Shown here: positions 1,099 through 11,210 of the stretch, piece by piece
Layout: every line of letters begins with the position of its first letter
Position numbering within the stretch: the first letter of the stretch is position 1
Source of the DNA: Nitrospinae bacterium RIFCSPLOWO2_12_FULL_45_22
GTDB taxonomy: Bacteria; 2-12-FULL-45-22
DNA length: 11,210 nt
Assembly (NCBI GenBank): GCA_001803565.1
Contig: MHDQ01000040.1
Location: forward strand, 3,895-15,104
Reading direction: 5' to 3'
Made by a program: the position numbers and the translations under genes
The notes under the pieces: generated by a model
The model's input: the letters and a program-made list of their open reading frames with translations, nothing else
What the model was told of the DNA's origin: nothing
Database searches by the model: none

Positions 1099-1105
1099 CT
1101 CCCTC
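1099..1105 (-). promoter_or_regulatory. Ribosome binding site of the HD-domain gene overlapping the racemase stop
   Basis: TGAGGGAG combines the racemase stop (1106-1104) with a GAGGGAG site placed 6 nt before the ATG at 1092. This fixes the HD-domain gene start and implies translational coupling. Confidence 0.7.
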
Positions 1106-1910
1106 AGAAAGGCTTTAAGCCAAACATGCTCCTTACTCTTTTTATGTCTTTCTCCCGGGGCATGGCATAGATGCCAGCGCGGCTGATAGCTGGCCAACCT
1201 AACCTGTCCTTGAGGTCAACTATTGCCTCTGCCGCCTTAAGGCCGATAACGACACAATCGAGCAACTGGGCGCCATTTTCATCCACCATAGTCACACCAG
1301 ACATGGTACAATGGGGTGCCAGCCCTGCACAGCCAACAATTACTACTTCAGCACCATCAGCCACGCAACCCCTGGCCTTGTCCAGGATGTCAGATACTAT
1401 CAGGTAGGGTTCCTGAAAACCCTTGGTAAAGACGTCTCGGTTAGCCATAGAGATGGTCCTCACGGGATGGGTTATAGCCCTTTCCTGCAGCCCTTGCAAC
1501 TTAATCATAACCTCCAGGTTAGTGGCTACCTTATTATCATTAGCGGTAACCACAGCAAAGCGATGTCCCAACATACAGGCCAGGAGCATGGAGGCTTCAC
1601 CAATACCTATAACAGGTATATTTACTACCTCGCGGGCTTCCCGTACACCAGGGTCTTCAAAGCAGCCTACCAGGGCCGCATCAAACCCCTCTTTCTCGGC
1701 TTCCATAATCTTCTCGATGATCTCCTTTTTATTTAACAGGTCAAAATAAGCCGATGAAGAGACTGCCAGACTCTCCAGGCCCGGCTCTACTGACTTGAAG
1801 GATACCTCGGTCCCGGGCCTCAATACCTTAGGGAACAACTGCCTGACTAGATCATAATAAGGTTGAGAAATTCTCTCTACCGTGATGTTAACAAAACATA
1901 TCTTAACCAT
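1104..1910 (-). CDS. Asp/Glu/hydantoin racemase family protein
   Basis: 268 residues, cytoplasmic, two-lobed aspartate/glutamate racemase superfamily. The two catalytic cysteines expected for cofactor-independent racemisation are visible: Cys83 in VGCFEDPGV (81-89) and Cys194 in IVGCAGLAP (191-199). The segment NIPVIGIGEASM (97-108) closely matches the hydantoin racemase branch, which also favours the FEDPG pattern. Such enzymes invert the alpha-carbon of amino acids or hydantoins; some superfamily members are maleate isomerases or decarboxylases, so the substrate cannot be named. It starts with a strong AAAGGAG site at 6 nt. Its TGA is part of the ribosome site of the following HD-domain gene, so the two are probably translated together. 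There is no hydantoinase or peptidoglycan gene nearby to give a pathway, and no sign of a role in chemosensing. Confidence 0.87.
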   Translation of the reverse strand: MVKICFVNITVERISQPYYDLVRQLFPKVLRPGTEVSFKSVEPGLESLAVSSSAYFDLLNKKEIIEKIMEAEKEGFDAALVGCFEDPGVREAREVVNIPVIGIGEASMLLACMLGHRFAVVTANDNKVATNLEVMIKLQGLQERAITHPVRTISMANRDVFTKGFQEPYLIVSDILDKARGCVADGAEVVIVGCAGLAPHCTMSGVTMVDENGAQLLDCVVIGLKAAEAIVDLKDRLGWPAISRAGIYAMPREKDIKRVRSMFGLKPF

Positions 1911-1989: not shown

Positions 1990-3504
1990 TCACCCCTTAG
2001 CAAGGGGCTTCAGATTTTGCTGGCATATATATAATATTTGTCTCAATTCTGTTTTACTATAAACAGAATTAAGGACATTTTTCTCCTGACCCATACCATG
2101 AGTGAATACAGTTAGGGCATTCTTATACTCCTTGGCGGCGTTGACTTTGTTCCCATTAGCCAGATAGAGTTCTCCCAGATAATAATGGGCTAAAGCCAAA
2201 TTTGGTTGAAGATAAATGGCCTTCTTAAACTCCATTAAAGCCTTATCTGTTTCTTCCTTATCTTTATAAATCAATCCTGACAGGAGATGGCCTTCGACGG
2301 ATAATGGATCAGCTTCTAACAAATCATGACATATACTCAAGGCATCTTCAAGCTTGCCTAAACAAATATATACATAGCTCAACAAGACAGACGCTTCAGT
2401 ATAGTTTGTATTATCGTTTAAGATAAGATTTAATATCTCCTTAGCCTTTTCATATTCTCCTCCTCCTATATGCCTTAGGCTTGCACTTATGGGGTCTTCT
2501 TCCCTTACTGGGTCTGTTTTAGTGCATTCACGAGAAATAGGTTTTGGCGAAGGGGGGGGAATTTTTGGTAGAGGTGTAGTCAGCAAGATTTTCCCTAGGT
2601 GCTTTCTGTCCACTCTTTCTCCTGATTCCGCGGGATGCTTCTCTTTGATATAATAAAAAACATTTTCTTTCTCCTGGAGTTGAAATGCGTGAGATAGGTG
2701 GAAAAGGGATTCTGCAGCACCGGTAAAAAGATATCCTTTCTCAGCTAAGCATTGGTAGAGGTTATGAAGTACTTTTCTAGCGGAATCGGGTCTAAAATAA
2801 ATAATCACATTTTTGCACAAGATAATATCATGCCCTCGCATATCCTCTATCGGGAAAGGATCATTGACTAAATTAAGCAAAGAAAAGTTGACCATATTCT
2901 TAACTTCTTCATGAAGGTGATAGTTGCCTCCCGAGAGGGTAAAATATTTCTCTAAATATCTTCTTTCTGTGTTCCTGAAGGAATTTTTCCCGTATATGCC
3001 CTCTTTTGCTTTTTTTAGCGCTTTGGTACTTACATCTGTCGCCAATATTTCTAGTTTAAAGTCCATTAGCAGTTCTTTCAGTTCCAATAAGGTCATAGCT
3101 ATAGAATAAGGTTCCTCGCCCGTAGAACAACCGGCAGACCATATCTTTAATACCCTCTTAAGTCTTGAACCAATCTTTTTCTGGATTATTTCCGGGATAA
3201 TATTTGTCTTTATAAAATCAAATTGCCAGGGGTCCCTGAAGAAATATGTTTCATGGACAGTAATGGTATTTAGTAGCTCCTGGAATTCTTCCTCACCACC
3301 GTTTGTAAGGAGGCAATTATAGTATTCCTTAAATCCGGTGAAATTCCTCTGGGCAATACGAATACTTACATTGCTCCTCAGAGAATCCCACAAAGACCTT
3401 TCCAGATGGATCCCACTTCGGTTTTCAATAAGGTCTTGCAAAAGAAAAAAATCTTCCAGGGATAACTCGATAGCAGAATTGGTTGATGCGTTAGTTACTA
3501 TCAT
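1990..3504 (-). CDS. cheR: CheR-type receptor methyltransferase with C-terminal TPR repeats (WspC/FrzF type)
   Basis: 504 residues from the chosen start. The N-terminal CheR helical domain (about 14-85) leads into the S-adenosylmethionine-dependent methyltransferase fold: TVHETYFFRDP (82-92), SAM-binding IWSAGCSTGEEPYS (121-134), ILATDVS (153-159), the CKNVIIYF strand (230-237) and TGAAESL near 261-267. A Pro-rich linker (about 309-322) joins it to about three TPR-like helical pairs (about 345-470). It methylates receptor glutamates and opposes CheB. The TPR part may position the enzyme at a receptor that lacks a pentapeptide tether, as proposed for WspC- and FrzF-like proteins; that is inference. 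The linker is encoded over a C8 run. It overlaps the cyclase gene by 14 nt. Placing cheR last differs from the Wsp order. The last codons form a short hairpin. Confidence 0.95.
   Translation of the reverse strand: MIVTNASTNSAIELSLEDFFLLQDLIENRSGIHLERSLWDSLRSNVSIRIAQRNFTGFKEYYNCLLTNGGEEEFQELLNTITVHETYFFRDPWQFDFIKTNIIPEIIQKKIGSRLKRVLKIWSAGCSTGEEPYSIAMTLLELKELLMDFKLEILATDVSTKALKKAKEGIYGKNSFRNTERRYLEKYFTLSGGNYHLHEEVKNMVNFSLLNLVNDPFPIEDMRGHDIILCKNVIIYFRPDSARKVLHNLYQCLAEKGYLFTGAAESLFHLSHAFQLQEKENVFYYIKEKHPAESGERVDRKHLGKILLTTPLPKIPPPSPKPISRECTKTDPVREEDPISASLRHIGGGEYEKAKEILNLILNDNTNYTEASVLLSYVYICLGKLEDALSICHDLLEADPLSVEGHLLSGLIYKDKEETDKALMEFKKAIYLQPNLALAHYYLGELYLANGNKVNAAKEYKNALTVFTHGMGQEKNVLNSVYSKTELRQILYICQQNLKPLAKG
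1993..2007 (-). other. Small hairpin at the 3' end of cheR
   Basis: On the transcribed strand CCCCTT-GCT-AAGGGG forms a 6-bp stem with a 3-nt loop, ending just before the TGA at 1992-1990. No T-run follows (TGATTGAGTG), so it does not qualify as an intrinsic terminator. It could slow ribosomes or protect the mRNA end, or be chance in Leu-Ala-Lys-Gly codons. Confidence 0.35.
2552..2559 (-). repeat. C8 homopolymer in the CheR linker
   Basis: Eight consecutive C on the coding strand encode the Pro-Pro-Pro of the linker between the methyltransferase domain and the TPR region. It is the longest G/C homopolymer I see in the window. A one-base change would leave the catalytic domain intact and remove the TPR part. 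As written, the frame is intact. Confidence 0.6.
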
Positions 3505-4984
3505 CCTTTTTCTCCATAAGGCAGACCCTGTTCCTACCAAGACTTTTTGCCTGGTACATGGCTTTATCAGCAAAGAAAATGAGCTCTCCCAGGGAGGGCT
3601 CTTCCCCTCCCGAGGACCATGATATACCTATGCTTACAGTTATCTTCAGGGATTGATTTTGGAGTATAAATTGGTGGTCCTCGATCTGCTTTCTTATCCG
3701 CTCGCAAAGGATTTTTGCACCATTAATAGGGGTTTCTACTAACAGGAGGGAAAATTCTTCCCCCCCAAAGCGGGCTAATAAGTCGGTCGTGCGGCATTCT
3801 TCTTGAATAATTCTGGCTATCTCTCTCAGGACAAAATCTCCTGCCATATGGCCATAAGTATCATTGATCTTTTTAAAATGATCAATATCCATGATTGCCA
3901 AAGAAAATATGGTTTTATATCTGATAGCCCTATAATATTCCCGGTTCAATACCTCAAAGAAGTGTCTCCTATTATATAACCCAGTTAAATCATCGGTAAT
4001 AGCTAAACCCCTTAACCTCTCAAATAAAAAGCCATCCTCTAAAACGATAAAAGCCTGTCTAGAAATTCGCTTTAATCTCTCCAGCTCTTCTGTATTCTCC
4101 ATAACTATGGGGGACAAACAGAAGGTAAATAACCCAGGTATCTTTCCTCCCTCTTCTCTAGGGATATGGAACAGTCTCTGGGCGAGATCTCTTATTAAAC
4201 ATTCTTCTTCTATTATCAGCTCTCTGTTATCATCTCGGACAATTATTTGCAAATTTTCGCTTTCTGAGCCGGTCTCCCCCGCCCGACCCCCAGCAAATAT
4301 TTTGAGACTCTCGCCTTTGATCTTACCCAGATCGAACCGTCCTACCTTAGAATTGACTTTAAGATAGCTGTGACATTCTTTTCTATCTCCCATAATTAGG
4401 GCAGCTACGGGGAAACTAATAAATGACTCATAGAGTTTAAATAAGGCATTTACGGTCTCAAGAAGGTTGTCATTAGAAAGGGAAAGCTGTCCGATTTGGT
4501 TCGATATGGTGGCTTCATAAAGGCTCTTATCTAATAGCTCATTTATCCTGTATAAGATTTCCCACATATCAGGAGGTTTTAGCTTTTGTACCAATTCACC
4601 TGAGCCAGCGTATTGTGGTCTAAACCTCAAGAGAACCTCTATCGTCCCTAGTAAATCTGTATGCCACATATCTTTAAGGATGTATTTATCGGCCCCGGTT
4701 TGTAAGCCCCAAAATTTATCTGCCGGTTGGTCTCTTGAGGTGAAAAGAATAATCGGGATACGAGAGGTAGACCTCTCGTTCTTCAGGTAGCGGCAGGTCT
4801 GATAACCATTCATATTAGGCATCATTATATCCAGGATAATAAGGTCTGGGTGTTCGGTGAAGGTTTTTTCTACCGCCTCTACACCATTTAATGCCGTTAC
4901 AATCTGATATCCAGCATCTCTTAAATAAGCCCCTATCATATCCAGGATGGTGGGGCTGTCATCCGTAATAAGAATTTTTGCCAT
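3491..4984 (-). CDS. Response regulator diguanylate cyclase, REC - GAF-like - GGDEF
   Basis: 497 residues, cytoplasmic. A receiver occupies about 1-120, with Asp8/Asp9, phospho-acceptor Asp52 in LDIMMP, Thr82 and Lys104. A middle region of about 155-325 has the look of a GAF domain: a leading helix, a hydrophobic core strand near FPVAALIMG, and an ending RQAFIVLEDGFLFERL. The GGDEF domain (about 326-492) starts with TDDLTGLYNRRHF, has LAIMDIDHFKKIND, and the active motif RFGGEEF (405-411). An RxxD inhibitory site (R398-D401) sits five residues before GGEEF. It should therefore make c-di-GMP from two GTP and be product-inhibited. It is the evident output of the CheA-REC pathway, as WspR is, but WspR lacks the middle domain and is about 150 residues shorter. 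Its end overlaps the cheR start by 14 nt. Function is secure; the GAF assignment is moderate. Confidence 0.94.
   Translation of the reverse strand: MAKILITDDSPTILDMIGAYLRDAGYQIVTALNGVEAVEKTFTEHPDLIILDIMMPNMNGYQTCRYLKNERSTSRIPIILFTSRDQPADKFWGLQTGADKYILKDMWHTDLLGTIEVLLRFRPQYAGSGELVQKLKPPDMWEILYRINELLDKSLYEATISNQIGQLSLSNDNLLETVNALFKLYESFISFPVAALIMGDRKECHSYLKVNSKVGRFDLGKIKGESLKIFAGGRAGETGSESENLQIIVRDDNRELIIEEECLIRDLAQRLFHIPREEGGKIPGLFTFCLSPIVMENTEELERLKRISRQAFIVLEDGFLFERLRGLAITDDLTGLYNRRHFFEVLNREYYRAIRYKTIFSLAIMDIDHFKKINDTYGHMAGDFVLREIARIIQEECRTTDLLARFGGEEFSLLLVETPINGAKILCERIRKQIEDHQFILQNQSLKITVSIGISWSSGGEEPSLGELIFFADKAMYQAKSLGRNRVCLMEKKDDSN
3512..3515 (-). promoter_or_regulatory. Ribosome binding site that sets the CheR start at 3504
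   Basis: GGAG with a 7-nt spacer precedes the ATG at 3504. An in-frame ATG at 3573 would add 23 residues that only shadow the conserved end of the GGDEF domain. The downstream ATG gives a 14-nt overlap, consistent with coupled translation. Confidence 0.7.
3760..3766 (-). repeat. G7 homopolymer within the GGEEF catalytic motif codons
   Basis: Seven G in a row on the coding strand encode the two glycines and the first base of the first glutamate of the cyclase active motif. A one-base slip here would destroy the cyclase. Similar G7 runs occur in cheB (5343-5349) and cheA (7492-7498). Frequent GGG codons may explain all of them. Confidence 0.5.
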
Positions 4985-4985
4985 C

Positions 4986-5573
4986 CTATGTCTTACTCCC
5001 TAAACTCAATAATCTATCTATTATGCCCTGGATGGATAAGACCTCATCTGCTGCTCCTATATCTATAGCCACCTTAGGCATACCGAATATAGTACAACTA
5101 CCCTCATCCTGTACCAGGGTAATCCCGTCCCCCTCCTTAATGGCCCTAAGCCCTCTAGCCCCGTCCTCTCCCATACCGGTTAACAAGACCCCTATAGCCC
5201 GTGTGCCATAAACTTCTGCCACGGATTCCATGAGGAAATCAATAGAAGGGCGGTGTCCTTTGAAAACGGGGGCAGAAAGAAGTCTTATCTGGCCCTTTTT
5301 ATTTACTATGGTGTGGTATTTATCAGGGGCCAGGAAGGCCCTCCCCCCCTCCACCCGATCCCCTGTCTGGGCAAGCTTCACTTCTATCAAAGAAGTTTTA
5401 TTGAGCCCCTCTGCTAATTTCTCAACAAAGCCTTCAGCAATATGCTGGACAATTATTATACCCAGAGGGAATTGGCTGGGGAGGAAAGATAAAATCTCCC
5501 TGATGACCTTAGGGCCGCCAGCCGAGGCCCCTATAGCAATGATTTCATAGTTATTATTCCCCTTTTTCTTCAT
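4986..5573 (-). CDS. cheB: CheB-type protein-glutamate methylesterase, catalytic domain only
   Basis: 195 residues forming a single CheB catalytic domain that removes methyl groups from, and may deamidate, receptor Glu/Gln residues. The triad is intact: Ser17 in IGASAGG (14-20), His44 in VQHI (42-45) and Asp137 in TGMGEDGAR (132-140); spacing agrees with enteric CheB. The N-terminal receiver of usual CheB and WspF (full length around 340-350 residues) is absent. An in-frame TGA two codons before the ATG rules out an extended N-terminus here. It follows cheA after a 53-nt gap, the longest within the operon, and has no good Shine-Dalgarno site, so it may be made at a low level. A one-base gap separates it from the cyclase gene. 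It likely opposes the CheR encoded downstream. Without a receiver, feedback from CheA must act some other way or not at all. Confidence 0.95.
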   Translation of the reverse strand: MKKKGNNNYEIIAIGASAGGPKVIREILSFLPSQFPLGIIIVQHIAEGFVEKLAEGLNKTSLIEVKLAQTGDRVEGGRAFLAPDKYHTIVNKKGQIRLLSAPVFKGHRPSIDFLMESVAEVYGTRAIGVLLTGMGEDGARGLRAIKEGDGITLVQDEGSCTIFGMPKVAIDIGAADEVLSIQGIIDRLLSLGSKT

Positions 5574-5626
5574 CTGTCATATCAATTATTCCCAATTATG
5601 CGTGAATTGTAGCCGTAACCTTTGGC
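5574..5626 (-). other. 53-nt cheA-cheB spacer without a clear ribosome binding site
   Basis: This is the only intergenic gap over 25 nt inside the signalling operon. The bases just upstream of the cheB ATG (TTGATATGACAG) have no GGAG-like match at normal spacing; the nearest is GGGA some 17 nt away. A TACAAT hexamer occurs in the spacer but has no convincing -35 partner, so I do not call a promoter. No stable hairpin or T-run is evident. Confidence 0.4.
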
Positions 5627-7735
5627 TTATCGCTTCGCTAACTTTTCAATGATAGCGAGGAATTCTCCTTGATCAAAGCTACTCTTTAGCATATAGGCAT
5701 CAGCCCCTACCTCTAATCCCCTCAACCTATCTTCTCTTTTCTCTTTCGTGGTTACTATAATGATGGGAATTTCTTTATGTCGGTCATCTTTTCGCACGGC
5801 AGCTACTAATTCGAACCCATTCATTCGGGGCATCTCAATATCAGTAATGATAAGATCAAAGTCCTGTTCTTTAAGCTTTTCCAGGGCCTCAAGACCATCT
5901 CTGGCCGTTTCTACTTTATAACCAGCCATTTGTAATATATTCTTTTCTAAATCCCGAACGATTAAGGAGTCTTCGGCTAACAGTAAAGACAATGGCCCTT
6001 TCTTCGTCTCCTCTATTTTCCCCCTCTCTAGGGGAATTCCCTTACGCAACCCTTGAATAATAGCCTCAACAATGGCTGTTACATTCAGAGCTAAGGCCAC
6101 CCCACCATTGCTCAAGCCAGCAACCCCACTGATCTCCCGTGTAGCTCTAAAATATCTCCCTAGCTTTTTGATTACTATATCTTTTTCTTCTAAGACTTTA
6201 TCTGCCAAAATGCCCACCCGCTGCTCTCCATGTTTAATAATTAAGGCATAGTATTTCTGCCCATCCCCCTGGACGGTAGGCAACTGGAGTAAGCCAGTCA
6301 ATTTTGCCGCCGGGATAGTTTTGCCATGGAAGGAGATAACATCTCTGTTTTCTAAGCTCATGACCTTATTGGGATCAAGATAAACTACCTCTTCAATAAA
6401 GCTCAAAGGAATAGCAAAGGTAGAGTCCCCGGAAGTAAACAATAAGGACGGTATTAGGGCCAGATAAAAAGGGAGGTTCAGTAGGCATCTGGTCCCATTT
6501 CCTCTTTCAGTGGTCAGGGTTACGGTTCCATTCAGCTTCTCCACGGTTCCTCTAACTATATCCAGACCTATTCCCCGCCCTGAAACCTCGGTAATAATTG
6601 ATTGGGTAGTGAAGCCAGGGTTAAAAATAAACCTCAACAATTCCCCCTCCGGGAGGGAGGCAGCCTCTTCTTGGGACAAGAAGCCTTTTTTGACTATCTC
6701 GTCCTGGATTTTAGGAAAATCTATTCCCTGGCCATCATCCTCTATCTCTATTGATATCCGATTCCCTTTTTGGGAGGCACACACCCTTAGTTTCCCTTTA
6801 GGGGGTTTACCCAGGAGTCTTCGTTGCTCAGGATGCTCAATCCCATGGTCTATGGCATTTCTAACAAGATGTATGAGGGGGGCGTCAATTTGATTAATAA
6901 TCCTTTGATCAATAGCTATCTCTCCCCCTTCTATTACCAGCTCAACTTCCTTACCCAATTCCTGGGAAAGGTCCCTAACTGCCCTGGGTAAACCATCAAA
7001 GACATGGGCAAGGGGGATTAAGGAGATAGCTAATACTTCTTCCTGAAGCTGATGGATCAATCTATCACCTAATACCACTTCTTCACTATAATTTTCTAAA
7101 AATTTTTTATAACTTGTCCTCAATTCTTGTGGTAATCCTTGAAATATTGGTGATAATAAGTTACTCAACTGATGGTACCTCTCCTCTTCCCGCATTATCC
7201 AATACCTTAACTCGCTAGATATCTTAGATAATTGCTCAATTATACTGGCATTTATGCGTACCGTTTCTAGATCAGAGATTTGGAGATAATGGTAGGTGGA
7301 AGTAGGGGTCATCTCATTGGGTGGTAAGGCTGGCTGCATTTTCTCTGCTGAAATCGCCGATTCGAGGCTGGCACAGAGATCAGATGGATCAAGGGTTTCC
7401 TTGCCGTCCTGTGCTATAACTTCTACCATTCGGGAAAGTAAATCTATACTTTGATAAAGTATATTCATTCCTTGAGGGTTCAAGCCTTCCTCCCCCCCTT
7501 TTTCTTTATCCAACATAGCTTCTATCGAATGGGCAAGGGTGCTAATATTTTTTAGCCCCAGCATATTAGCTGAACCTTTAATAGTATGAACCTCCCTCAA
7601 AACCCCTTGTAATATATCTCTATTCCCCTTCTCTGCCTCTAAAGAGATGAAGTCATGTTCTACTCTTCTGAGGCGTTCTCTAGTCTCTTCTACAAATTTC
7701 TTTATAAAAGGGGTGCGATCAAAATCTTTAGCCAT
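5627..7735 (-). CDS. cheA: Hybrid chemosensory histidine kinase CheA with C-terminal receiver (WspE/FrzE type)
   Basis: 702 residues from the chosen start. Domains in order: Hpt (about 5-120) with phospho-accepting His50 in [12 protein letters not shown]; a short Pro-rich linker (130-150) with no recognisable P2 CheY-docking domain; dimerisation P3 (about 155-255); HATPase P4 (about 256-420) with N box [12 protein letters not shown] (289-300), DDGQGID (333-339) and GRGIGLDIV (387-395); CheW-like P5 (about 421-565); and a receiver (about 583-702) with Glu588/Asp589, phospho-acceptor Asp632 in TDIEMP, and Lys684. It is a cytoplasmic kinase held at the receptor array by CheW. Fused CheA-receivers are typical of Wsp, Frz and Pil/Chp-like systems rather than flagellar ones. 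The likely target is the receiver of the diguanylate cyclase two genes downstream. All catalytic motifs are present. It overlaps the receptor gene by 8 nt (ATGGCTAA). Confidence 0.96.
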
Positions 7736-9470
7736 CTCCTTTTTCCTTACTAATCTTGAACAATTTAGACATCCTTCCTTCAAATCCCTCGGTCATTTTG
7801 TTTAAATCAGCCGCAGCATTTTCCGATTGCTTCATACTAGAGGCCATTTCGTTTACTACTTTAGAGATTTCTCGCATGGTAACCGCTACTTGCTCACTGG
7901 CAATTTTTTGTTGCTGGGTAACCGAGGTAATCTGCTTAGTGGCATCAACCATGGTCTCAATAGTGTTCGCAATAGTATATAAATGACTCTCCACTTTTTT
8001 TACCAGAATAACCCCTTCCTCTACTTCTCTAACTTCTTGTTCAGTGGCCAGGACCGAGGCATTAGTGGCTCCTTGTATATCTGTGATTATACCTTGTATT
8101 TCATCCGTAGAACCTCGAACCCTCTCAGCTAGCCTCCTTACCTCTGTGGCAACCACAGAAAATCTCTTGCCGTACTCGCCAGCGCTAGCTGCCTCTATAA
8201 CAGCATTTAGGGCCAGGAGATGGGTTTGATCGGCAATCTCCCTAATCATCTCTACAATACTGCCAACCCGTTGGGACCTCTCACTCAGGGAGAGGGTCTT
8301 ACGGCCTAATTCATCGGCCTTATCCTTGATCCTGCTCATAGCCTCGGTCATCTGTGCGACAATTTCTGCGCTGGCCTGAACATTGTTACTGTTTTCCCAG
8401 GCTATTTTTTCTACGGTGGTTGCGTTCTCAGCAATCTGTTGCGCAGTTTTGCTTAGCTCTTCAGTAGTAGCAGTGATTTCACTGATGGAGGTAGCCTGCT
8501 CAACCGAACCGCTGGCTTGTTCCTCTATGGCAGATAGTATCTGAGACGTGGCTGATCTAATCGTCAAAATGGCCCTTTGAACCCCTTCAATAAGCTGCCG
8601 AAGATTTATCACCATATTATTAAAAGAATCGGCTAGATCGCCTTTGATATTGACTTCTTTAGTCAAGTCTCCCTGGGCAATCTCCTGGGCCTGCTGAGCC
8701 AAAAGCCGTAGATTCTCTGCCATCTCATTAAAGCTCCTGCCCAGGTCTCCAATCTCATCCTTGCTATTAGTAGTGATAGCTTCGCCCAGATCCCCCTCAG
8801 CTATCCGTTTAGAGGCATTAATTACCGAATTGATGGGCCGGACAATGATATGGGCCAGATAAAAAGTGATAAGCAAGATACCCGGATAGAATAACCCAAA
8901 ACCACCAAAAAGGAGCTTCCAGACATAAGCTGTTGTGCCTTCAGCCTCCCTCTGGAGTTCCTTTACTTTTTGGCCAACAGCCTCGTTCAGCTTATTACTA
9001 TACTCTGTGAGGGAAGTGCCCAAGTGAAAATTAATTTCTTTAATCAGTTCTACTGATCTGGGATCATCCAAAAGGGCACGTAAAGCAAATAGCTCTTCTG
9101 CGCTTTGTTTGATTTGGAGAGATAATTCTTTTATCTGGGCAAGGGAATCTTTTCCTCCTTGGGTGAGCACTATCTTATTTTTTATTAAATGGTTCAAGCT
9201 TGTATTCAAAACTTGAGAAACTTCATTGAAATCATTTAAATATTCTCCTTTTCCGGTAATAAGAAAATAGTTGGGTAGCAGCATTATCCTGGACAAGTCT
9301 ACCCGTATTTTACTAACTTCCTGTTGATACTCAGCCAATAACACCAATTTCTCAATAGATTCTGAATAGCGAGATATACCATATTTAGCGATGCTAAGAA
9401 CAACTATGACTATTATGGTCAATGCTACTATGCCTGCCAATGCTATTTTTTTCTGTAGATTAAATCTCAT
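7728..9470 (-). CDS. Methyl-accepting chemotaxis protein (membrane chemoreceptor) with tandem HAMP
   Basis: A 580-residue receptor. A basic N-terminus leads into TM1 (about 9-28). A mostly helical outer sensor region (about 30-183) resembles four-helix-bundle ligand or surface sensors. TM2 spans about 186-210. HAMP 1 (about 208-260, with IAEGDLG) is followed by a second HAMP-like unit (about 261-310, with IAQGDLT). The long signalling coiled coil ends near 560. Candidate methylation sites fit the small-x-x-Glu/Gln-Glu/Gln pattern around E317/Q318 and E337/E338. The hairpin tip is clear ([14 protein letters not shown], 411-424) but carries several changes at otherwise near-invariant positions (see findings). 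There is no C-terminal NWETF-type tether for CheR/CheB; the C-terminus is basic. By analogy with WspA, it controls the CheA-REC encoded next door. Its end overlaps the cheA start by 8 nt. The ligand is unknown. Confidence 0.95.
7744..7749 (-). promoter_or_regulatory. Ribosome binding site that sets the CheA start at 7735
   Basis: TAAGGA lies 8 nt upstream of the ATG at 7735, inside the last codons of the receptor gene. A second GGAG abuts the ATG directly and is too close to serve. The site supports the start giving protein [10 protein letters not shown]... over an in-frame ATG 48 nt further upstream, whose extra residues would only overlap the receptor gene. Confidence 0.7.
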
Positions 9471-9479
9471 TTTATTGAC

Positions 9480-9485
9480 CCTCCT
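9480..9485 (-). promoter_or_regulatory. Strong ribosome binding site for the chemoreceptor gene
   Basis: A perfect AGGAGG lies 9 nt upstream of the receptor ATG at 9470 and one base after the TGA of the second CheW (9487-9489). It is the strongest Shine-Dalgarno site in the operon. It confirms the receptor start and suggests the receptor is made at a higher rate than its neighbours. Confidence 0.8.
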
Positions 9486-9486
9486 C

Positions 9487-10029
9487 TCATAATCTTTTAG
9501 GTATTAAGTTAGGCTCTAGCTGATCAGCCTTCGTTGATAGTTGAGTCCAGTTAATTAAATTCTTATCCCTTATTCCCGGCAAATTATTGGTTTCTATTAA
9601 GAGCAGGGGCCTATCAGAGATTAACCCCAGTCCCCAGATATATGTCAAGGGGAGAAGCCGTCTGATACGCTGAGGGAGGGGGTAGAGCTCTCGGGGAGAT
9701 AAACTATAGAATTCCTCAACTTCATCTACTATTATCCCTATGGGTCCGTCATCTGACTTTACTACGATTATGGTAGCCCTTCCCTCTGTCTCTCTTTTCT
9801 GGTCAGCCAACCCCAATATCTCGTTAAAGCCTATCAGCGGGAATTCTACTTTATCCCTGGTTAATGTTGTTATAACCTCAGCCACATTATTTCTGACTTT
9901 AAAAACTTCCTCTGGGGCATACCTGTGTACGCGTAGAATTTGCTTCAATTCCACTCCGAAGCAGGCTTTTCCCGCTTTAAAGGCAAGAATATCTACTTTA
10001 TATTCTTTATCTCTCAGTGAACCTGGCAT
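9487..10029 (-). CDS. cheW: Divergent CheW-like adaptor protein, second copy
   Basis: A 180-residue protein recognisable as CheW-like but much more divergent than its neighbour. The first beta segments ([17 protein letters not shown], 12-28) and the region [14 protein letters not shown] (97-110) match the family pattern. The central block that normally carries NLRG is replaced by [16 protein letters not shown] (53-68). Residues 120-150 ([16 protein letters not shown]...PLLLIE) fit the last strands of the fold, and a polar tail of about 30 residues follows. The likely role is linking the receptor to CheA-REC, as WspB/WspD do in Pseudomonas. The ATG follows the previous gene's TGA after one base and has no clear Shine-Dalgarno site, so translation probably depends on re-initiation. 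The stop lies one base before the receptor gene's AGGAGG. The family call is fairly secure; specialisation is inferred. Confidence 0.82.
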
Positions 10030-10030
10030 G

Positions 10031-10534
10031 TCATTCTAAAAGTAGCAATTTTTCTAAATCCAAGATTCCTAAGAGCACCTCTCCTATCTGAATCTGACCC
10101 GTTACATATCCTTTCTGCTTTCCCTCGGATTGTAGGAAGTAGGGCTCTATTTTTTCGTGCATGATCTCTACAATATCCTGGACAGTCTCTATTACCAAAC
10201 CCACTGGCTCGTCGTCAGTCCTGGGTATGAGAAGCCGGCTCTTTTCAGTAAAGGTCGTTTTATCCAAACCAATGAGGGGCTTAATATCTATTACAGACAA
10301 TATTTCTCCGCTATGGTGGGCTACCCCCAGGATATAATCGGGAGTTCCAGGGACGGGTGTAATCGTAGGTATTTTAGTTATCTCCCGTAGCTGAGATAGG
10401 GGGACACCATACCACTCTTTTCCTAGACAAAAAGTCAAAAGAGATAATGTGTCATCTGATTGGTCCTGGTCAGATTCCTCCCGTTGTCTTCTACCCATCT
10501 CCATTAATACTTCTTTTTCTTCTTCTAATAGCAT
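10031..10534 (-). CDS. cheW: CheW-like adaptor protein, first copy
   Basis: A 167-residue soluble scaffold protein of the CheW family, which couples chemoreceptors to CheA. After a charged, probably disordered N-terminus (about 1-28) comes the CheW fold: LLTFCLGKEWYGVPL at 32-46, then the block around 67-90 that includes ILGV and VIDIKPLIGL, then VGLVIETVQDI at 111-121. Where most CheWs read NLRGE in the middle block, this one reads AHHSGE (72-77), so the conserved Arg is missing. The ATG has an AGAGG site 7 nt upstream. ATGs at codons 11 and 13 are possible but have poorer ribosome sites. Its TGA is separated from the ATG of the second CheW by one base, which suggests translational coupling. 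By analogy with Wsp, the two CheW copies may play different roles. Confidence 0.92.
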   Translation of the reverse strand: MLLEEEKEVLMEMGRRQREESDQDQSDDTLSLLTFCLGKEWYGVPLSQLREITKIPTITPVPGTPDYILGVAHHSGEILSVIDIKPLIGLDKTTFTEKSRLLIPRTDDEPVGLVIETVQDIVEIMHEKIEPYFLQSEGKQKGYVTGQIQIGEVLLGILDLEKLLLLE

Positions 10535-10555: not shown

Positions 10556-11210
10556 TTAATGTTTGATAACACTTAAGCTTTTTTTAAACTCGAGGGCCTC
10601 TTCTATGGTCTGGCGTAATTTTGCCATTTCAAAAGGCTTACCTATTAAAAGGTCTACCCCTTTCTCTTTTGCCTTGTTAATATCTATTTCCGGTTGCCAG
10701 CCAGTAATCATTATTAGCGGGGTATCAGGGGCAAGGCCTTTGATAGCCTCCGCTATTTGCCAGCCCGATATGCCCGGCATACCGAGATCTGTAAGGACCA
10801 TATCGAACCTTTGGGAAGGAAGGCGCACCTTTAGGCTATCTTCAAAAATCTTTAGCCCTTCTTTGGCATTTGAGGCAGTGGTTATACGGTGTCCCAGGAA
10901 AGTCGCCATTTCATAAAGGACTTCTAACACCAGCTCTTCATCATCAATAGCCAGGATATTTGCCCCTTTAATCTCTTTTATTTCCGGTATAACATCTTCC
11001 TTAACCCTAATTTCTCGTGCCACAGGTAACTTTATGACAAAAGTTGTCCCTTTCCCCTCTTCAGACTTAACATCTATAACCCCGCCGTGGCGGGTAATTA
11101 TCCCATAAGACACGCTCAGCCCTATTCCTGTGCTTTTACTCCCCTTGGTGGTAAAGAAGGGATTGAATATTTTATCCCTGACCTTTTTACTCATCCCTAT
11201 GCCAGTATCT
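10556..11210 (-). CDS. Hybrid histidine kinase, C-terminal part (ATPase end plus receiver domain), 5' end outside window
   Basis: Partial gene: the frame is open to the right edge, and the visible 217 complete codons are the C-terminus. They begin inside a GHKL/HATPase domain at the G1 box (DTGIGM, visible residues 1-6), then FNPFFTTK (15-22) and the G2 box STGIGL (26-31), followed by the usual GGV...GKGTTF end. A receiver domain occupies about 83-205, with acidic pair Asp89/Asp90, phospho-acceptor Asp141 in LTDLGMP, Thr169 and Lys191 in GKPF. By family knowledge, the kinase autophosphorylates a His upstream of the window and passes phosphate to the fused receiver or to a partner. The sensor and His regions cannot be seen. 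It stops 21 nt before the first CheW gene, so the two are very likely co-transcribed and this kinase may feed the chemosensory pathway; that link is inference. The family call is firm; the signal is unknown. Confidence 0.93.
   Translation of the reverse strand, partial: DTGIGMSKKVRDKIFNPFFTTKGSKSTGIGLSVSYGIITRHGGVIDVKSEEGKGTTFVIKLPVAREIRVKEDVIPEIKEIKGANILAIDDEELVLEVLYEMATFLGHRITTASNAKEGLKIFEDSLKVRLPSQRFDMVLTDLGMPGISGWQIAEAIKGLAPDTPLIMITGWQPEIDINKAKEKGVDLLIGKPFEMAKLRQTIEEALEFKKSLSVIKH

Follow-up and report, generated by a model that had tools for sequence, protein, structure and literature searches.

A chemosensory operon with a predicted c-di-GMP output, Wsp-like but of a separate lineage, in a Nitrospinae bacterium

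Described systems

The mechanistic model for chemosensory control of c-di-GMP is built on the Wsp system of a few proteobacteria. Wsp is defined by the synteny of wspA-F and is restricted to beta- and gammaproteobacteria (PMC8552884); its canonical gene order, MCP-CheW-CheR-CheW-CheA-CheB, is seen in the reference loci L164-L166 and L105, just as an initial annotation of the DNA analyzed here had given it. A Wsp-like operon with an altered order, cluster 2 of Halomonas titanicae, was described in 2018 (PMC5907407), and REC-GGDEF outputs in clusters with a CheR-TPR protein have been known since 2012 (PMC3447774), so neither the reordering nor the cyclase output is new.

Here we describe a che operon of the Nitrospinae bacterium RIFCSPLOWO2_12_FULL_45_22, carried by a stretch of 11,210 nucleotides that is referred to as a whole as the window. 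The Wsp systems of Pseudomonas and Burkholderiales share with it an MCP of equal hairpin length, two CheW proteins, a P2-less CheA-REC, CheB, CheR-TPR and a REC-GGDEF output, all in one operon, but the window differs in its gene order, its receiver-less CheB, its GAF-bearing cyclase of another family, and proteins that lie outside the Wsp clade. Cluster 2 of H. titanicae likewise consists of reordered Wsp-like parts, including CheA-REC, CheR-TPR, a canonical and an unusual CheW, and a diguanylate cyclase output (PMC5907407), but it has its own order (M-B-R-A-Y-cyclase-W-W), a cyclase with an Hpt domain and two receivers, a CheY-like gene, and a CheB with a receiver. A Halomonas record labelled as a plasmid (L104) carries an operon of the cluster 2 type in which, as in the window, one CheW is canonical and the other divergent (12294-13260); this 1.8-Mb 'plasmid' may be chromosomal. 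Actinobacterial operons (L023, L024 and L155-L160) share the gene order, the REC-GAF-GGDEF family, CheA-REC and CheR-TPR with the window, but have a single CheW, a REC-CheB and a different receptor sensor domain, and a clade joining them to the window is not established (AU p 0.12-0.14). The Frz system of Myxococcus shares the CheA-REC kinase, a CheR with TPRs and non-flagellar use, but it acts on gliding and pili polarity, lacks a diguanylate cyclase and has a cytoplasmic receptor. Two features appear to be new within the surveyed literature: a conserved lineage of W-M-A-B-cyclase-R order whose output is a REC-GAF-GGDEF protein, and its version with a receiver-less CheB in the phylum of the window.

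Gene content and organization

The operon occupies window positions 1990-10534 on the minus strand. Its seven genes, all identified by Pfam at the coordinates below, are ordered 5' to 3' as CheW, divergent CheW, MCP, CheA-REC, receiver-less CheB, REC-GAF-GGDEF and CheR-TPR, and are preceded by part of a hybrid histidine kinase gene.

10556..11209, minus strand: hybrid histidine kinase, 3' part (end of HATPase, and REC; Pfam)
10031..10534, minus strand: CheW1, canonical coupling protein (PF01584, 8.7e-33)
9487..10029, minus strand: CheW2, divergent coupling protein (PF01584, 2.8e-11)
7728..9470, minus strand: MCP chemoreceptor (Pfam, 2e-37; alignment with WspA, Tar and relatives; hydropathy)
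5627..7735, minus strand: CheA-REC, 703 codons including the stop, counted from the ATG (Pfam Hpt, HATPase and CheW, with REC at 1.7e-26; motifs)
4986..5573, minus strand: CheB, methylesterase domain alone (PF01339, 1.1e-59; motifs)
3491..4984, minus strand: REC-GAF-GGDEF diguanylate cyclase (Pfam GGDEF, 3.9e-45, and REC, 1.7e-25; GAF through family members)
1990..3504, minus strand: CheR-TPR methyltransferase (PF01739, 1.2e-52, and TPR families)

The initial annotation had recognized a full set of Wsp-like parts in one tight operon, and this is borne out by the seven genes and their spacing. The gaps from the hybrid kinase through to cheR are 21, 1, 16, -8, 53, 1 and -14 bases; within the che operon the tightest junction is the 14-base overlap and the widest the 53-base gap. 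Translation of cheA likely starts at the ATG at 7735, rather than the TTG at 7783, and overlaps the MCP termination codon, and that of cheR likely starts at the ATG at 3504, rather than the TTG at 3573, 14 bases inside the cyclase gene. None of the operon proteins scores above the cut-off of an NCBIfam equivalog.

Catalytic motifs are intact in every enzyme of the operon that was checked for them. CheA has the Hpt histidine (His50), the N, G1, F and G2 boxes, the dimerization, ATPase and CheW domains, and a C-terminal receiver (Asp632); no P2 domain was detected by Pfam. In CheB the GASAGG, QH and TGMGEDG motifs are all intact and the receiver is absent, as the initial annotation had it, and CheR contains its SAM-binding motifs. 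The MCP has two transmembrane segments by hydropathy and a HAMP domain with a possible second HAMP; its helical sensor region has no Pfam match and no C-terminal pentapeptide is apparent. Both helices of its cytoplasmic hairpin are longer than those of Tar and match the length of WspA (40H), an assignment made by hairpin length in an alignment with WspA, Tar and relatives. A search with CheW2 shows a similar divergent CheW adjoining a canonical one in L042, L038 and L104.

The cyclase receiver contains Asp52, Thr82 and Lys104, and the GGDEF domain has a GGEEF active site and an RxxD I-site. Between the two domains, the only parts of the window protein that match Pfam, is a spacer of about 200 residues. 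A GAF match is present in 18 of 19 aligned family members (the window protein and 18 relatives; best 3.7e-10), the exception being the window copy, but an insert profile built without the window protein recovers it at 1e-15. An AlphaFold model of the insert from four sequences is poor (mean pLDDT 43), and the GAF assignment rests on the profiles, by which the insert is GAF-like, in agreement with the earlier description.

In full, the hybrid kinase has a GAF-PAS-PAS-HisKA-HATPase-REC arrangement of at least 801 aa and extends beyond the window. Because it is on the same strand and ends 21 bases upstream of cheW1, it may be the first gene of an operon that is longer than described here; no kinase lies upstream of the che operon in the relatives L023 and L155. 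Downstream and on the same strand are a gene of the Asp/Glu/hydantoin racemase family, 79 bases after cheR, and one for an HD-domain protein (window 1104-1910 and 1-1197), both probably unrelated to signalling.

Host genome

The host genome is a draft of 3.67 Mb, 85% complete, from a phylum represented by two genomes in the collection. There are no flagellar genes or free CheY in the window or in its 16.9-kb contig, and to that extent the initial annotation was right; elsewhere in the genome, however, both are present. A flagellar cluster with flhA, flhF, flhG, a sigma factor and flgD/E/F/G/A/H/I/J-like ORFs (functions read from the sequences) and a second, canonical che locus (C189) with CheR, CheY, CheA and REC-CheB lie on contigs other than that of the operon, which rules out an organism without flagella.

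Receiver matches are numerous across the genome, where receiver-bearing proteins are common, and over 130 residues the receiver of the cyclase shares 41% identity with a stand-alone one from the second che locus. Contig C29 (1486-2535) encodes a further REC-GGDEF protein, whose 349 aa correspond to the length of a two-domain, WspR-like protein. With this protein, a CheA besides that of the operon and several CheY-like proteins in the same host, cross-talk is possible, and the C29 protein is a possible partner of the operon CheA.

On contig C307 (1099-11755), a glycosyltransferase of cellulose-synthase-like type that carries two PilZ domains is encoded ahead of a 1627-aa TPR frame, a GH8 enzyme and a membrane protein of the sulfatase family. 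This Bcs-like polysaccharide operon is probably responsive to c-di-GMP, and is a plausible candidate effector of the c-di-GMP made under control of the che operon. Another possible effector, a small PilZ protein elsewhere that matches the PilZ domain only in Pfam, adjoins a GAF-HD protein whose N-terminal end is cut at the locus edge and resembles a receiver remnant.

Relatives and gene order

Of the 80 loci obtained by scanning genome contigs, two, titled Thermoleophilia, have the W-M-A-B-cyclase-R order together with the cyclase architecture of the window. An iterated insert profile added no members from the first loci, but a phylum-wide search did: among 396 genomes of the phylum of Thermoleophilia there are seven strong matches to the insert, all in B-cyclase-R order and one of them in L023's own genome. 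With the rest of each operon read from extended DNA, the W-M-A-B-cyclase-R order is found in eight loci of this one phylum sample (L023, L024 and L155-L160), of which L160 is partial, its contig starting within the MCP gene. Six genes placed in random order would give this agreement once in 720 times. The eight relatives have a single CheW and a REC-CheB, whereas the window has a second CheW and a CheB without the receiver. FlhA is absent from all eight genomes, with positive controls. Since the order recurs in eight genomes that all lack FlhA, the W-M-A-B-cyclase-R layout is a conserved lineage, and the comparison of gene order that had been proposed earlier thus yields a layout kept in eight loci.

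About 25 further genomes of the same phylum sample carry REC-GAF-GGDEF proteins. No che genes were found within about 1 kb of the cyclase gene in any of the 13 that were mapped, nor, in the three checked further, within 10 kb on either side or up to the contig end. These che-less proteins (L118-L130 and L161-L163) fall into a supported group of their own next to the cyclases encoded in the operons, and the che cassette may have recruited a free REC-GAF-GGDEF regulator. The other genome of the taxonomic order to which the window belongs contains a different cluster, with CheR-TPR, CheW-CheW, MCP, CheA-REC, REC-CheB and a kinase.

Phylogenetic placement

In the CheA tree there is good support for both the Wsp references and the actinobacterial set as groups, and in a concatenated tree of CheA, CheB, CheR and MCP for the flagellar systems as well; in both trees the Wsp clade (100) leaves out the window. 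The concatenated tree puts the window on the ACF/non-flagellar side at SH-aLRT 100, where its long branch joins no partner with support, and the host C189 system among the flagellar ones. A reduced tree places the window beside Wsp, as a weakly supported sister at SH-aLRT 87. The AU test rejects neither a grouping with the flagellar systems (p 0.28) nor one with the actinobacterial group (p 0.12-0.14), and no grouping of the window with the Wsp, actinobacterial or flagellar set is either established or rejected. Placement in the ACF class by tree, which had been put forward as a check, is thus suggestive at most. In the cyclase tree the window protein joins the actinobacterial REC-GAF-GGDEF family at SH-aLRT 99, with WspR outside at 100. 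The initial suggestion of a distinct lineage is supported.

Profiles of the CheA groups score the window protein at 286-337 bits with every group, as compared to 364-573 for left-out members with their own group; its flagellar (336.5) and Halomonas-type (336.8) scores are about equal, and with the Wsp profile it reaches 289 against 548 for a left-out Wsp member. Among the sets compared, the best BLAST score is in the actinobacterial group for four of six proteins (CheW1, MCP, the cyclase and CheR), that for CheA is with the cluster-2-type locus L104, and that for CheB is with the CheB of the host's own flagellar locus. Judged by sequence comparison, the window CheA belongs to no sampled group and is a long-branch lineage.

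A P2-less CheA with a receiver is concentrated in classes F3, F5, ACF and Tfp, and so is not unique to ACF (PMC10782961), a CheR-TPR with a multidomain response regulator in the cluster is an ACF marker (PMC3447774), and the ACF class pairs with 40H receptors (PMC10746217). The window has a CheA-REC without P2, a CheR-TPR, a multidomain regulator and a receptor of 40H length; linked CheY or flagellar genes, which mark a flagellar class, are absent from the operon, and the same-order relatives lack FlhA. This architecture fits the ACF class, and a non-flagellar class is sustained on these grounds.

Proposed function

We favor, with a probability of roughly 0.78, the interpretation that this is a self-contained chemosensory operon of ACF architecture with a c-di-GMP output, predicted to work like Wsp but belonging to a separate lineage whose order is shared with the actinobacterial group. 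The only output dedicated to it is a diguanylate cyclase whose catalytic and inhibitory sites are both intact, and the predicted output is most likely c-di-GMP rather than swimming. The initial annotation had drawn the same conclusion from the lack of flagellar genes, an argument that fails because a flagellar cluster and a further che system are present in the host; the improved argument holds because the eight same-order relatives all lack FlhA.

A true Wsp system that was acquired horizontally and later reordered would have the identical parts list and a receptor hairpin of WspA length, and could account for the position beside the Wsp clade in the reduced tree. It is nonetheless strongly disfavored and highly improbable. 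The synteny, the clade membership and the WspR-type REC-GGDEF output that characterize Wsp were each tested, and the window departs from all three: its order differs, a Wsp clade with 100% support excludes it, and its cyclase contains a GAF domain and is split from WspR by a 100% branch. The CheB lacks a receiver, the CheA falls far short of a genuine member on the Wsp profile, and Wsp has been reported solely from beta- and gammaproteobacteria (PMC8552884). A description as a rearranged Wsp system is therefore not supported.

Alternatively the pathway could mainly modulate swimming, either by an effect of c-di-GMP on the flagellum or by phosphate cross-talk between it and the host CheY system, and the flagellar cluster, the CheY-like proteins of the second che locus, the similarity of the cyclase receiver to the stand-alone one there, and the small PilZ protein are in keeping with this. 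We consider it unlikely, although the most probable of the alternatives, as operons of the same order occur in eight genomes without FlhA, the operon encodes a dedicated output of its own, and the small PilZ protein, with a PilZ domain alone, gives no support for a YcgR-type brake. The position of the hybrid histidine kinase gene just upstream of cheW1, and the GAF/PAS sensors and receiver of its product, raise the further scenario that this kinase rather than the receptor is the main input, with the che proteins forming a phosphorelay with it; yet such a kinase is missing upstream in L023 and L155, receiver-bearing proteins are common in the host, and this is the least probable of the scenarios considered.

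Under the favored interpretation of a self-contained operon with c-di-GMP output, a receptor signal would alter autophosphorylation of CheA-REC, and phosphate would pass from CheA His50 to Asp52 of the cyclase receiver, switching on c-di-GMP synthesis within limits set by inhibition at the RxxD site. The receiver of CheA would compete for phosphate and serve as a sink, like the receiver of FrzE, which is an inhibitor or sink (PMC4546325), and the GAF domain of the cyclase could provide a second, cytoplasmic input. CheR-TPR would methylate the receptor, and the receiver-less CheB would demethylate it without phosphorylation feedback; we infer this independence because the CheB of E. coli is activated by deletion of its receiver, although less than by phosphorylation (PMC8609364). 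The end effect could plausibly be the production of polysaccharide, activated by c-di-GMP.

A broader scenario, for and against which we see the balance as about even, is that the order W-(W)-M-A-B-cyclase-R marks a Wsp-independent type of c-di-GMP pathway, found in at least two phyla and mostly in flagellum-less bacteria, in which a REC-GAF-GGDEF protein joins phosphorylation and cytoplasmic ligand inputs, and that in the window lineage the methylesterase has lost phosphorylation control, giving adaptation without the usual feedback. With a lineage apart from Wsp that has a cyclase family of its own and occurs both in a poorly sampled phylum and in actinobacterial relatives that lack flagella, the coupling of che arrays to diguanylate cyclases is broader than Wsp, and it was probably assembled on more than one occasion. 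The window CheB, which has lost its receiver naturally, also offers a system for asking whether adaptation needs phosphorylation feedback.

Outputs of related clusters

Output swapping is common in such che clusters (L038, L039 and L042). In L038 (12488-14599) a REC-GAF segment homologous to the N-terminus of the window cyclase is fused to a histidine kinase in place of GGDEF, in a CheW-CheW-CheB-CheR-CheA cluster. A similar che core in L039 (11368-13608) and in L042 (12460-14706), both from Nitrospinota, ends in a REC-GAF-PAS protein whose sequence reads as including a class III nucleotidyl-cyclase-like domain, which suggests chemosensory control of another cyclic nucleotide.
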